Assembly: GCF_000725625.1 (NCBI RefSeq)
Contig: NZ_JOHS01000006.1
Span: 1-64,000 of the forward strand
DNA: 64,000 nucleotides
Reading direction: 5' to 3'
Origin: Streptomyces sp. NRRL F-6676
GTDB lineage: Bacteria > Actinomycetota > Actinomycetes > Streptomycetales > Streptomycetaceae
Shown here: in pieces, positions 9,786 through 32,337 of the stretch
Layout: every line of letters begins with the position of its first letter
Position numbering within the stretch: position 1 is the first letter of the stretch
Notes under the pieces: generated by a model
What the model was told of the DNA's origin: nothing
Seen by the model: the letters and a program-made list of their open reading frames with translations, nothing else
Databases searched by the model: none
Translations under genes and position numbers: made by a program

Positions 9786-11225
9786 ATGAGCAGTACTACC
9801 AACACGTCGACGCACCACACGTCCACGATCGGCTCGATCGGCACGCCGAGCCGCCGCAACACCGAGCTGGCGCTGCTGCTGTTCGCGGTCGCCATCCCGG
9901 TGTTCGCCTACGCCAACGTCGGTCTCGCCCTCAACGACCAGGTGCCGCCGGGGCTGCTCGGCTACGGTGTCGGGCTCGGTCTGCTGGCCGGCGTCGGCCA
10001 CCTCGTGGTGCGCAAGTTCGCCCCGTACGCGGACCCGCTGATGCTGCCGCTGGCCACGCTCCTCAACGGGCTCGGCCTGGTCGTCATCTGGCGTCTGGAC
10101 CAGTCCAAGCGGCTCCAGGCACTGCCCACCTTCGTGTCGGCCGCCCCCAGACAGCTGCTCTACACGGCCCTCGGCATCGCCCTGTTCGTGGCCGTCCTCG
10201 TCTTCCTCAAGGACCACCGCGTCCTCCAGCGCTACACGTACATCTCCATGGTCGTCGCGCTGGTCCTGCTCGTCCTGCCGCTCGTCCCGGGCCTCGGCGC
10301 CAACGTCTACGGCGCCAAGATCTGGATCTCCATCCCCGGCCTCGGCACCCTCCAGCCCGGTGAGTTCGCCAAGATCGTGCTGGCGATCTTCTTCGCCGGC
10401 TACCTGATGGTGAAGCGGGACGCGCTCGCCCTGGCCAGCCGCCGCTTCATGGGCCTGTACCTGCCCCGCGGCCGCGACCTCGGCCCGATCGTCGTCGTCT
10501 GGATCATCTCCATCCTGGTCCTGGTCTTCGAGACCGACCTCGGCAGCTCGCTGCTGTTCTTCGGCATGTTCGTCGTCATGCTGTACGTCGCCACCGAGCG
10601 CACCAGCTGGATCGTCTTCGGTCTGCTGATGTCCGCCGCCGGCGCGGTCGGCGTGGCCTCCTTCGAACCGCACGTCCAGCAGCGCGTCCAGGCCTGGCTC
10701 AACCCGCTGCACGAGTACAAGCTCAGCCAGCAGGGCGTGATCGGCCACTCCGAGCAGTCCATGGAGGCCCTGTGGGCCTTCGGCTCCGGCGGCACGCTGG
10801 GCACCGGGCTCGGCCAGGGCAACTCGGACCTGATCAAGTTCGCCGCCAACTCCGACTTCATCCTCGCCACCTTCGGCGAGGAACTGGGGCTCGCCGGACT
10901 CATGGCGATCCTGCTGCTCTACGGGCTCATCGTGGAGCGCGGCGTGCGCACCGCCCTGGCCGCCCGCGACCCGTTCGGCAAGCTGCTCGCCGTCGGCCTG
11001 TCCGGCGCCTTCGCGCTCCAGGTCTTCGTCGTCGCCGGCGGTGTCATGGGCCTCATCCCGCTGACCGGTATGACGATGCCCTTCCTGGCGTACGGAGGTT
11101 CCTCCGTCATCGCCAACTGGGCACTGATCGGCATCCTGCTGCGCATCAGCGACACCGCGCGCCGCCCGGCCCCGGCCCCCGCCCCCAACCCCGACGCCGA
11201 GATGACCCAGGTGGTCCGCCCGTGA
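9786..11225 (+). CDS. rodA: RodA/FtsW/SpoVE-family peptidoglycan glycosyltransferase
   Basis: SEDS-family glycan polymerase of 479 residues with about ten membrane segments. The family signature is visible in IWISIPGLGTLQPGEFAKI, ETDLGSSLLFFGMF, ATFGEELGLAG and the C-terminal FLAYGGSSVIANWALIGILL. SEDS proteins polymerise lipid II together with a class B PBP, and the next gene encodes one, overlapping by four bases. A His/Thr/Ser-rich cytoplasmic N terminus precedes the first helix. RodA rather than FtsW is inferred from the operon. Confidence 0.94.
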   Translation: MSSTTNTSTHHTSTIGSIGTPSRRNTELALLLFAVAIPVFAYANVGLALNDQVPPGLLGYGVGLGLLAGVGHLVVRKFAPYADPLMLPLATLLNGLGLVVIWRLDQSKRLQALPTFVSAAPRQLLYTALGIALFVAVLVFLKDHRVLQRYTYISMVVALVLLVLPLVPGLGANVYGAKIWISIPGLGTLQPGEFAKIVLAIFFAGYLMVKRDALALASRRFMGLYLPRGRDLGPIVVVWIISILVLVFETDLGSSLLFFGMFVVMLYVATERTSWIVFGLLMSAAGAVGVASFEPHVQQRVQAWLNPLHEYKLSQQGVIGHSEQSMEALWAFGSGGTLGTGLGQGNSDLIKFAANSDFILATFGEELGLAGLMAILLLYGLIVERGVRTALAARDPFGKLLAVGLSGAFALQVFVVAGGVMGLIPLTGMTMPFLAYGGSSVIANWALIGILLRISDTARRPAPAPAPNPDAEMTQVVRP

Positions 11226-28981: not shown

Positions 28982-28989
28982 CCTCGTCG

Positions 28990-29032
28990 GTGGGGCTAAC
29001 AGATGCGAACCTGTGGCCTCATCCTTATCAGG
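28990..29032. repeat. attL-like copy of the tRNA-Ile 3' half
   Basis: A stretch matching the 3' half of tRNA-Ile. Positions 29007-29032 are identical over 26 bases to 32281-32306, covering anticodon loop to T arm. The outer part GTGGGGCTAACAG also matches, with a one-base deletion and changed bases in the T loop between them, so this copy cannot be a working tRNA. It marks the left junction of an integrated element. Confidence 0.85.
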
Positions 29033-29196
29033 CCGATCATGGGAGGTCTTCTGATGTCGCAGACCTCTTGCAGCGCCTCGACCAGCGATCCGCTGAGGTT
29101 CAGCGCGGAACGCTCCTGTTCGCGCCTGTTGGTGTCAGCCGCTGATGTCAGCCCCCGCATGTGGTCTTGACAACATGACCTCGCCTACTCCTAGGG
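29033..29196. other. Element left end, noncoding
   Basis: No gene is supported. A small hairpin GAGGTCT/AGACCTC lies at 29043-29067, and TGATGTCAGC-type motifs at about 29142 recur near the right end at about 32203 and 32217. Confidence 0.45.
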
Positions 29197-29454
29197 CTAG
29201 ATACCTTCAGGTGGGATGGCATCGTGAAGCGTCTGCAAGACGGTGCGTATTTGATCGCGCGTGAATCCACTCCGCAGTTCCAACTCTCGGTCTGACATGT
29301 TGTAACCGTTGCACAGCTCGTTCAACGCGTTGTTGATGATCACGGCTTCCCCTGCACTGAGTCGCACCGTGACGTGTTCGGTCGAACTGTCGATGATCTC
29401 CACCGGTCCAGCATGGCGCTTCGTGCGGTACTTTCGATCCCTTCCCGCACCCAC
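29197..29454 (-). CDS. Small conserved-looking protein of unknown function
   Basis: An 85-residue soluble protein with a helical middle (SAGEAVIINNALNELCNGYN) and a C terminus LRSGFTRDQIRTVLQTLHD, without a recognised domain. The GTG at 29452-29454 has GGGAG upstream; an internal GTG at 29401-29403 is possible. Regular codon bias and lack of an opposing frame suggest it is real cargo of the element. Confidence 0.6.
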   Translation of the reverse strand: MGAGRDRKYRTKRHAGPVEIIDSSTEHVTVRLSAGEAVIINNALNELCNGYNMSDRELELRSGFTRDQIRTVLQTLHDAIPPEGI

Positions 29455-29903
29455 TACCTATCAGCTCCCATCCCGTCCGCCGTCGACCCACACCCCGTGG
29501 AGCGGGCGTGGTTCAGGGCGTCCAGGTGGAGCGCGCCACTGTACGAACGACCTGGACGCCCTGGGCCGCGTCTGCTCGGCTCTGCCTGGGTCGGCGGTGG
29601 ACGGGATGGGAACTCCCCGCGCACGCCCCAACGTGCTCGCGGTCGGCGACGGCACCCCCTCCATCCCGGAGCCGGCCGATCCCCCGCCGGAGGCATCGTC
29701 CTTGACCGCGCCCCGTTCTGTCCGGTGGTCGACTCATGGTCTCCGGCCCTACCCAATAGTGAGCGCGCGTCGGCGCAGCGCGGGCGGAGCGGGCCGAAGG
29801 CAGGAGCGGCGCCCGGCGCGGAGCCGGGAGCGCGCCCGGCGGAGCGGAGCGCAGCCGCTTGATGAGGAAGAGAAACCTGTAACAGCTCCCGCCCTTGCCG
29901 GGG
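29455..29903. other. Noncoding stretch of the element
   Basis: About 450 bases without a credible gene; reading frames here are Arg/Pro/Gly-rich and lack start signals. It holds the 146-nt inverted repeat (29466-29611) and, at about 29764-29860, a very GC-rich block with direct copies of GGCGGAGCGG and a CCCGGCGCGGAGCCGGG hairpin. Confidence 0.55.
29466..29611 (+). ncRNA. Candidate structured RNA: 62-nt inverted repeat with 22-nt loop
   Basis: Arms 29466-29527 and 29550-29611 are equal in length. Pairing base by base gives 48 Watson-Crick pairs, 8 G-T pairs and 6 mismatches, the latter clustered at 29491-29499 as an internal loop. All eight G-T pairs are G-U in a + strand RNA and would be A-C clashes in the opposite strand. 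The innermost 14 bp (29514-29527 with 29550-29563) are perfect. No promoter was placed and no known family is recognised. It could also be a palindromic insertion. Confidence 0.45.
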
Positions 29904-30569
29904 TCAAGCCGAAGGCACACCGGTGGTCACGAGTCGGCTCGTGAAGCCTGCTTGGCGTAGGCGTTCGTACGCCTCGATGACATCGGCGGGTACTGGCTGG
30001 CTGATCATGAATCCCTGATCCGGGTAGATCATCAGTCGTTGCAGTGCGCCGACAAGCATGTCGATCACCAAGCGGGCGTCACCGATGGAGTCGACGTACT
30101 CCCCGAACGTCATCGGGGCGGAAGCGCTGATGACCTCGACTTCGGGCCAGAGCTTGCGGGCGGTGGCGTACGCTCTGCGCTCCTCGTACGGCTTGCTGAT
30201 CAGGAGCACCGAGGACACCTCGACGCCGGACTCCTCCAACAGCTCTCGCGAGAACCGGATGTTCTCGCCCGTGTTGCGGGCGCGCGGCTCCACGAGAATG
30301 GCCGTGCTCGGGACACCGAGTTCGAGCGCTCGTTCCCGGTAGTGGACGGCTTCCCCGCGGGGCATGCGTTCCCGCGTCGTGGGGCTGGTGGCGCCGGTGA
30401 ACAGGAGCAGGGGCGCCATCCCGCGTTTGTAGAAGTCCACTGCGGTATCGGCCACGCCCAGGTCGTGGCTGCCGAGCCCGATGGCAACCGAGCACGGCCT
30501 GGGTGAGTGGCCCATCTGGTGGTAGTCCCACACGCGTCGGGCGTCTGCCCAATCCTGTGTCGAGATCAC
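29904..30569 (-). CDS. YdcF/ElyC/SanA-family protein
   Basis: A 221-residue cytoplasmic protein of the YdcF (DUF218) family. Family features are SVAIGLGSHDLGVADTAVDF, LLLFTGATSPTTRERMPRGEAVHYRERALELGVP, the acidic-basic ARNTGENIRFSRELL and SKPYEERRAYATARKLWP. No signal peptide or membrane helix is present. Substrates are unknown, possibly nucleotide-like. The GTG start overlaps the stop of the GntR remnant (GTGA), so the two were an operon. It is the only intact larger gene of the element. Confidence 0.85.
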   Translation of the reverse strand: MISTQDWADARRVWDYHQMGHSPRPCSVAIGLGSHDLGVADTAVDFYKRGMAPLLLFTGATSPTTRERMPRGEAVHYRERALELGVPSTAILVEPRARNTGENIRFSRELLEESGVEVSSVLLISKPYEERRAYATARKLWPEVEVISASAPMTFGEYVDSIGDARLVIDMLVGALQRLMIYPDQGFMISQPVPADVIEAYERLRQAGFTSRLVTTGVPSA

Positions 30570-31013
30570 TGCCGGCCTTCCTTGTCCTTCGCCGAGTCGG
30601 GCACCTTGAAGTCGTACTCCCACGCGAAGCGCGATGCCACGTGCACTCCGATGGCGAACTCCACCACAGTGCCGGTCGCCGTGTAAGTCGTCCGGTGCAG
30701 CTCGACGACGGGTTCCCCCCGGCGGTAGCTGGAGCTGCTTCACCACGTCCGGTGTAGCGACACGGGCAAACAGCCGCTCCTTCATGTGATCGATCTCGTA
30801 ACCCGCGTCGTACAGCACGCGAAATCCGCCGCCCCGGCCGGCGGGTCCCGGCGTGGGGTCGACCAGTCGGGTGCCTTCGACGTGCTCGGGCCGGTAGTAG
30901 CTCGTCAGCATGTGGGTCGGCTGGTCGCCTTCCTTCACCAGCCGTGCGCGAGCGTAGACCGGAGCGCCCGTGGAGAGTCCGTGGGCCGCTGCGACCTCGG
31001 GTGTCGCTTCCAC
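30566..31013 (-). pseudogene. GntR-family regulator, truncated and frameshifted (KorSA-like)
   Basis: The remaining part is a UTRA ligand-binding domain: EATPEVAAAHGLSTGAPVYARARLV, then SYYRPEHVEGTRLVDPTPG, then KERLFARVATPDVVKQLQLPPG (gaps mine). At the C6 run at 30715-30720 the frame breaks; removing one C restores EPVVELHRTTYTATGTVVEF to the stop GRQ. The N-terminal winged-helix is absent because the sequence changes at about 31013 to integrase sequence. In AICEs this type of regulator controls transfer. One indel could be a sequencing error, but the lost DNA-binding domain is not. Confidence 0.8.
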
Positions 31014-32153
31014 ACGGCGGCGGCACGATCACCAAGCGGTCCGATGGCCGGTACCAGGGCGCTGCCTACGTCACCGATACGGACGGCAACCGCGTGCGGA
31101 AGTACGTGTACGGCCGGAGCTGGGACGAGACGAACGAAAAGCTCGGCAAGCTGCAAGATCAGGAGCGCAACGGCATCCCCGTGCCCTCGCGGTCCTGGAC
31201 GCTCGGCGAGTGGCTGGCCTACTGGCTGGAGCACATCGTCAAGCCGGAGCGCGAGCACAACACCTACGTCAAGTACGAGTCCAAGGTGCGGCTCTACCTG
31301 GTGCCGCATCTCGGGAAGAAGTCGCTGGTCAAGCTCACCCCGGCACAGATCCGGACCTTCATGGCGGCGCTGCGTCGGGAGAAGGTCGGCGCGTCCGCGC
31401 GGTTCGAGGTGCTGCGGGTTCTGCGCAACGCCCTCAACCGGGCCATGCGCGAGGAACTGGTCACCCGGAATGTCGCGCTGCTGGTCGACATGCCCAAGGT
31501 CAGCAAGGACAGGGGTACGGCGTGGAACGCCCGGGAGGCCATCGCGTTCCTGCGGTCGGTCCGCGCCCACCGGCTTTACGCGGCCTGCGTCCTCGTTCCT
31601 GGTCCTCGGCCTCCGGCGCAGTGAGGTGCTCGGCCTGCGCTGGCAGGACATCGACTTCGAGGCCGGCCAGTTCACCCCGGTCAAGCAGGTGCAGCGTGAG
31701 AAGGGGGTCGGCCTGGTCCTCAAGGATCTCAAGACGGAGTCCTCACAGGCGGTGCTTCCGCTCCCGGAGTTCTGCGCCCGTGCCCTGGGCGAGCGTCGGG
31801 AGCTCCAAGAACTGGAACGGAAGATCGCCGGTGAGCACTGGTCGCAGGAGCCGGACCATGACCTGATCTTCTCCTCGGAGCACGGCGGCATGATCGACCC
31901 GGTGGGCTTCTCCCGCACCTTCGATCGGCTTGTCAAGCGGGCCGGCGTCCGCCGGATCACGGTCCGCCTCGCCCGGCACACGTGCGGGACGCTGCTCGCC
32001 TTCCTCAAGGTGCATCCCAAGGTCGCTCAAGCGATCCTCCGGCACAGTCAGATCAGCATGACCATGGACGTGTACACGCACGTCGTGGGCGACAGTGAGC
32101 GCGAAGCGGTGGGCATGCTCGCCGAGCTGCTGGAAGATCCGCTCATCGGCTGA
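31014..32153 (+). pseudogene. int: Tyrosine site-specific integrase, inactivated
   Basis: Sequence begins mid-domain at GGTITKRSDGRYQGAAYV (arm-binding domain) without its own start, continues through a SAM-like core-binding domain (LGEWLAYWLEHIV) and then shifts frame at about 31595-31597, where one extra T splits LYAACVLV from LVLGLRRSEVLGLRW. In the catalytic domain Arg (LRRSEV), the later His (LRHSQI) and Tyr (MDVYTHV) remain, but the expected HDARHT box reads LARHT: a six-base in-frame loss near 31970 removes the catalytic His. The enzyme should be dead. Confidence 0.85.
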
Positions 32154-32260: not shown

Positions 32261-32337
32261 TGGTGGGGCTAACAGGATTTGAACCTGTGGCCTCATCCTT
32301 ATCAGGGATGCGCTCTAACCAACTGAGCTATAGCCCC
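32261..32337 (-). tRNA. tRNA-Ile (anticodon GAT), attR side
   Basis: A 77-nt tRNA with encoded CCA. The acceptor pairs GGGGCTA with TAGCCCC, the anticodon loop CTGATAA gives GAT, and the T arm ACAGG-TTCAAAT-CCTGT is intact. Its 3' half (32281-32306 and outwards) is the copy brought by the element, which keeps the tRNA functional after insertion. Confidence 0.97.

Follow-up and report, generated by a model that had tools for sequence, protein, structure and literature searches.

The window analysed here is a stretch of 64,000 nucleotides from contig NZ_JOHS01000006.1 of Streptomyces sp. NRRL F-6676. It contains an integrated element in which attL is followed by a hairpin, the remnants of a ydcF/gntR region, a frameshifted int gene and a tRNA-Ile gene (Table 1). 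The element shows tRNA integration with att repeats, as 26 nt of attL (29007-29032) are identical to positions 32281-32306 of the tRNA gene; longer exact att copies of the same kind were found in two other loci, L046 and L048. An integrase is present but frameshifted. When its two pieces were searched apart, the first matched PF14659 (1.2e-10) and the second PF00589 (1.7e-19). The pair of replication initiator and TraB is absent from the element: tblastn with the Rep or FtsK of pMR2 found no match between the att sites of the window, and the nearest RepSA on the contig lies 136 kb away. Because initiator and TraB are missing, we regard the element as the remnant of an actinomycete integrative and conjugative element (AICE), which agrees with the initial annotation, where the hairpin had been placed beside a ydcF gene in a decayed element. 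Since rep and tra are gone, this copy of the hairpin is probably out of use by now. An open reading frame of 85 aa without a Pfam match lies between attL and the hairpin (29197-29454, - strand).

Relatives with a full set of genes (L046, L048 and L049) carry the hairpin, gntR, a 115-aa ORF, an FtsK-like traB, a DUF2637 gene, repSA, int and tRNA-Ile. This order was read from Pfam matches of the L048 proteins and from tblastn in L046 and L049; the labels TraB, SpdB and NUDIX-like are our own, as Pfam gave FtsK_SpoIIIE and DUF2637, and NUDIX was assigned by eye. AICEs of the pSAM2/pMR2 type likewise have a tRNA attachment site, Int, RepSA, a DUF2637 gene, an FtsK-like TraB and a GntR regulator in a fixed order, and pMR2 carries the hairpin itself. 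In the window copy, by comparison, rep and tra have been lost, and int and gntR are frameshifted. The slot for cargo beside the hairpin cassette, seen in the window and in L044, L046 and L052, holds a YdcF-like, a glycosyltransferase-like, a NERD or a NUDIX-like (by eye) gene. A second copy of the hairpin in the source genome (G000:C5:174067-174221, equal to L041:10067-10221, - strand) sits in a fuller AICE with an FtsK-like TraB, a DUF2637 gene, an integrase and a RepSA split over two frames.

Table 1. Features of the decayed element, with the second hairpin class for comparison. Positions refer to the window unless a locus is given.
Feature	Position	Strand	Basis or remark
attL, imperfect copy of the 3' half of the tRNA-Ile gene	28987-29032, left end approximate	.	
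Conserved non-coding cassette (hairpin and downstream module)	29438-29884, ends approximate	+	homologue alignment
Class I hairpin, proposed single-strand origin	29462-29620	+	folding, covariation, arm pairing
Hairpin arms	29466-29527 and 29550-29611		
Hairpin loop	29528-29549		
Internal loop	about 29491-29499		
GC-rich stem region of the shared module	29765-29857, ends approximate	+	similar block in other AICEs, pIJ101, pJV1 and pTSC2
CTTGATGAGGAAGAGAAACCTGTAAC, proposed rolling-circle nick region or sso start region	29858-29883	+	
YdcF-like gene (DUF218), cargo slot adjoining the cassette	29904-30500	-	PF02698, E 3.1e-18
gntR-type regulator remnant, broken frames	30400-31035	-	two-piece match to the gntR regions of L050, L051, L055 and L056
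Tyrosine integrase pseudogene, two frames (30944-31624; frame ending at 32153)	30944-32153	+	
tRNA-Ile (GAT), integration site, attR side	32261-32337	-	
Class II hairpin family	L064, oriented, 10556-10740, and 16 other loci		covarying

Folding and covariation of the hairpin

The initial annotation had described two arms of 62 bases with 48 Watson-Crick pairs, 8 G-T pairs and 6 mismatches, and an ungapped recount of the 62 positions gave exactly these numbers. The mismatches are at 29491, 29492, 29494, 29495, 29496 and 29499, and one of the six is an A-C. The hairpin folds beyond chance on both strands, and the + strand is clearly stronger. Folded as RNA (166 nt), the + strand reached -126.2 kcal/mol (z -11.1) and the - strand -105.1 kcal/mol (z -6.3); in both cases, none of 200 shuffles was equally good. 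DNA energies for the 159-nt core were -63.6 on the + strand and -55.3 on the - strand.

We then looked at the distribution of this hairpin, here called class I. Matches with an E value of 0.001 or better were obtained in 258 of 392 genomes of the same genus. By count from the table, 224 of these 258 matched at 1e-10 or better; the remaining 34, which are weak or short, may be due to chance. The source genome has four hairpin places, one of them partial. Of 394 genomes drawn from the class, a covariance model (R1) matched 45, comprising 22 of the same genus and 23 of other genera, the latter including some short or weak matches. An exact core pattern occurred in at least 119 stretches, and the 80 matches listed all name Streptomyces. 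Among 72,556 plasmid records 19 matched, including pMR2 of Micromonospora rosaria. None of 50,697 phage records did, and a phage origin was set aside on this count. The hairpin belongs to self-copying mobile elements of soil actinobacteria. In a literature search covering titles and the opening lines of abstracts, the class I hairpin was not named. Some copies lie close to each other on the same strand (G013:C1:3817572 and 3819793; G040:C1:3413618 and 3418862), and L144 has two copies on one strand whose core matches begin 70 nt apart.

In 64 distinct copies, standard pairs are formed in 98.9% of the cells, double changes occur at 19 of 58 pairs, and the covariation score exceeded that of all 500 shuffles; the signal was lost when the partners were slid by one to three columns. 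The strand-specific, single-stranded structure that had been suggested is therefore kept by compensatory change, and we consider the hairpin a non-coding sequence with extensive stem-loop structure under selection, as is characteristic of an sso (single-strand origin).

The bias in the direction of the G-T pairs, previously noticed in the window copy, extends to the homologues, where 506 G-U cells stand against 10 A-C cells, counted on a structure predicted for the + strand, which itself favours G-U over A-C. The + strand gave the more stable fold in all 17 copies folded and in 16 of the 20 copies fetched from other genera. In the other four loci (L248, L260, L261 and L263), the - strand folds equally well or better. 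Most likely, the molecule that matters is the + strand in single-stranded form.

Such a molecule could be RNA, namely a transcribed structured RNA of the AICE (for example a regulator of rep, tra or excision) that is read rightward through the hairpin. The preference for + strand G-U pairs, the very strong RNA folding and the covariation would all agree with it. However, rolling-circle replication, in which only one DNA strand ever becomes single-stranded, would lead to the same bias. In an ungapped profile of 63 copies, conservation begins only about 20-30 nt 5' of the stem. This leaves little space for a conserved promoter and makes a transcribed RNA less likely, and a scan of 29100-30100 for one promoter type revealed no sigma-70-like promoter. 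Rfam returned no family at its gathering score (the best model, mir-4776, reached 34.3 bits where 97 are needed), and membership in an Rfam family was rejected, as all matching models were below threshold. Moreover, the site is taken by an unrelated hairpin in other RepSA elements (see below), which would be odd for an RNA acting in trans. On balance, we consider a transcribed RNA unlikely.

RepSA and the CTTGAT module

The intact relatives encode RepSA, a rolling-circle initiator, and we examined how its gene lies relative to the hairpin. Thirty genomes chosen for having the hairpin gave 65 places, full and partial, with E values down to 3.1e-17; reverse-strand self-matches and weaker short fragments were left out. 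RepSA was found within 20 kb of 27 of these copies, in every case on the strand of the hairpin and 1.5-10.7 kb downstream of it, a count that includes partial hairpins as well as G109, where 4.15 kb separate the hairpin from the module described below. The other 38 copies have no RepSA within 20 kb. For RepSA itself, 65 of 70 rows were used; the five excluded are the second halves of two split genes and three short fragments. Among these fragments, one in G380 (33.3 bits, below threshold) lies about 6.7 kb from a hairpin copy on the opposite strand.

In other genera, a RepSA-type gene was in view at 9 of the 20 fetched loci. Eight of the nine are on the strand of the hairpin, seven being of the MR2 type and one of the SAM2 type; at the ninth locus, the Rep is on the opposite strand and belongs to a complete neighbouring element. 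Class I occurs with the very distant RepSA of pMR2 and in seven loci with MR2-type RepSA. With the displaced strand taken as the rep strand, the orientation of the hairpin is fixed, as in an sso. Where replication genes can be seen nearby, the strand of the hairpin is linked to that of the rolling-circle initiator of the AICE, which speaks against the stand-alone structured RNA of the initial annotation; what stands of that interpretation is a + strand, single-stranded structure under selection. The constant strand and place of the hairpin could also reflect shared descent of the gene order.

The intact relatives also have TraB on the same strand, as would suit a clt, the site at which the FtsK-like TraB recognizes DNA for double-stranded transfer, and PMC9513070 notes that for pSAM2 no such motif has been described. 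A site bound as double strand is, however, not expected to show a one-strand G-U bias, and the clt of pWTY27, as outlined in an excerpt of PMC3583192, consists of short repeats. A clt at this position is very unlikely.

Conservation is not confined to the hairpin. Homologues align from about 20-30 nt 5' of it through a CTTGAT motif, and in the window the module containing this motif follows the hairpin at a distance of about 240 nt. CTTGATGAGGAAGAGAAACCTGTAAC has one mismatch to the commonest form of the motif. CTTG/AT is the nick motif of pC194 and phiX174. We scanned 50 class I rows with four typed motif forms and used one mononucleotide shuffle per row as a rough control. The module was found with at most 7 mismatches in 30 rows, compared to 9-14 for the best matches in shuffles; it lies 199-298 nt past the hairpin end in 29 of them and 65 nt past it in the truncated copy L043. 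The other 20 rows scored 11-13 mismatches, like shuffles, and lack the module.

The extent of this cassette also bears on a palindromic insertion element (MITE), the alternative offered in the initial annotation, or a terminator, either of them without a role in replication. Copies are many and dispersed, and a good part of them have no AICE genes in view. Nevertheless, the repeat does not end at the arms, since the conserved block extends about 270 nt past the 3' arm, and we rejected a MITE for this reason. A terminator was rejected because there is no terminator-like match at the hairpin. The fixed strand relative to RepSA and the covariation argue against both, and we regard an explanation of this kind as extremely improbable.

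We infer that the module is the nick region of RepSA. Plasmids with a similar module allow another assignment. It was recognized in pIJ101, pJV1 and pTSC2, and pSN22 gave a BLAST match to it; in all four, the module follows rep on the same strand. In pIJ101, an spdA2 motif separates rep from the module. An excerpt of PMC4170104 gives the plasmid order as rep-spdA2-sso, and the module beyond spdA2 is therefore located where the sso is placed, a reading of pIJ101 that rests on gene order in that excerpt and not on mapped sequence. The nick site of pJV1, CCTAGGTAAA, is given in a passage of PMC13346255 as lying upstream of rep, that is, elsewhere. In plasmids of the pIJ101 type, the module and the reported nick site thus do not coincide, and the module may be part of the sso and not of the dso (double-strand origin). 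In a rolling-circle replicon, the sso is located a short way 5' of the dso and becomes single-stranded late; the CTTGAT motif 3' of the hairpin, however, may not be the nick site. A search for shared 9-mers upstream of repSA revealed no clear dso. L101:72-1415 (+) of pIJ101, at first mistaken for rep, is an antisense frame; rep itself lies on the - strand. A 0.53-kb SacII fragment for sti was not confirmed.

A distinct motif of the type CTTGATC...AATTCGGC was seen 3' of the hairpin in L244, L248, L263 and pMR2 (L037), and is a candidate nick site for MR2-type RepSA. L244 is one of the seven loci with an MR2-type Rep, and L248 and L263 have no Rep in view. In the other six MR2-type loci, no CTTGATC was present within 600 nt.

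An unrelated hairpin class in other RepSA elements

In the same set of genomes, a class I hairpin is absent within 20 kb of 39 of the 65 RepSA matches, and 19 of these loci were fetched. At the equivalent place, 17 of them have a second, unrelated hairpin, here called class II. All 17 fold better on the rep strand. Over 61 pairs, again counted on a structure predicted for the + strand, G-U cells outnumber A-C cells by 113 to 3, and 26 pairs show double changes. Three of the copies have no more than 70-73% similarity to the query but still fold strongly. The class I model found no convincing match in the 19 loci (best E 0.042), and class II was therefore not taken as a diverged class I. One locus, L080, has a degenerate class II row and also holds class I. 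Neither class was found in L067 and L068. L068 and pIJ101 (L101, about 7700-7292, - strand) have sequence in common 5' of the module, as seen by eye, which suggests a third hairpin class in these two.

Downstream of both classes come a GC-rich stem and CTTGAT or CTTGAA with a GTAGRGAAA core; by a strict pattern, the motif lies 121-224 nt 3' of the class II hairpin in 12 of 17 loci. To determine whether hairpin and motif follow the Rep, their distances were compared in Mantel tests on 29 of 34 loci, leaving out L041 and L079, whose Rep is incomplete, L067 and L068, which have neither class, and L071, whose motif has 9 mismatches, and counting L080 as class II. Motif distance correlated strongly with Rep distance (r 0.77, p 0.0002), whereas hairpin class was weakly tied to it (r 0.15, p 0.014). 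The Reps of L062 and L052 are 94.8% identical, and their hairpins are of different classes. At least seven changes of hairpin class were counted on a Rep tree of 31 rows, a count made without shuffled control. The hairpin is thus independent of the Rep type, as expected of an sso; this concerns independence from Rep and not recognition by the host.

A module linked to Rep next to a hairpin that is not Rep-specific is the pattern expected of a dso beside an sso. Plain linkage of the module to the backbone of the element predicts the same pattern, and the nick site is thus unproven. The hairpin could instead be part of the dso, as a structure that is bound by RepSA and positions the nick at the CTTGAT downstream. 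It does adjoin a motif that co-varies with Rep, and the nick site of pSAM2 has led to its placement in the pC194 family (te Poele et al., cited in PMC3218068). Its class, however, barely tracks Rep: close Reps have different classes, and distant types of RepSA share class I. A part in the dso therefore seems quite improbable to us.

The hairpin as a putative single-strand origin

We propose that the hairpin is probably the sso of a RepSA-type AICE, or the structured part of it, left behind in a decayed copy. An sso fits best because the hairpin is a non-coding fold of one strand, has a fixed orientation, lies beside a replication module, is replaceable and does not depend on the type of Rep. 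In an intact element, Int and Xis would excise a circle, and RepSA would nick one of its strands at the dso. Leading-strand synthesis would then displace the nicked strand as single-stranded DNA. The hairpin would fold on this displaced strand and could be recognized by the host as the site for priming the second strand. By definition, an sso turns single-stranded into double-stranded DNA, and its loss leads to a build-up of the single-stranded form. Our confidence in an sso that acts as single-stranded DNA is tempered by the four of 20 loci in other genera that show no + strand preference and by the MR2-type loci, most of which lack the CTTGAT motif.

The two classes allow a broader proposal, for which we see an about even chance. 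In actinobacterial rolling-circle elements, at least two unrelated hairpin families would share a single position 5' of the common module and replace one another there as cassettes. The priming machinery of the host would treat all of them alike, as folds of one DNA strand, and they would make up a portable, host-recognized origin of the second strand that is found across subfamilies of RepSA and families of bacteria. The sso types of Gram-positive plasmids (ssoA, ssoU, ssoT and ssoW) are unrelated structured sequences that serve one role and are swapped between replicons; ssoA is marked by RSB and CS-6. By role, we liken the hairpin classes to these types.

Few cis-acting sites have been mapped well in the integrative elements of actinobacteria; according to PMC9513070, even pSAM2 lacks a described clt motif. 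A widespread hairpin with a rival class at one site offers a handle on lagging-strand priming in Streptomyces, which in pSN22 reportedly proceeds without RNA polymerase (PMC4170104, in an excerpt citing Suzuki 2004). The hairpin also marks AICE remnants whose genes are lost, and it is a possible part for vectors that have no sso, such as those of the pIJ702 type (PMC4170104).

The closest known counterparts are sti of pIJ101 and the sso of pSN22, which like the hairpin are non-coding, structured and on the same strand as rep, and plasmids of the pIJ101 type carry the downstream module as well. In contrast to them, class I sits in integrative elements, and its role as an sso is one that we infer. 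The class I model found no convincing match in pIJ101, pSN22, pJV1 and pTSC2 (best E 0.056). A 5.2-kb plasmid record assigned to Pseudomonas sp. SK2 (NZ_CP061946.1) is 99% identical to the rep region of pIJ101; this is odd for Pseudomonas, and the record is perhaps a contaminant or a vector.
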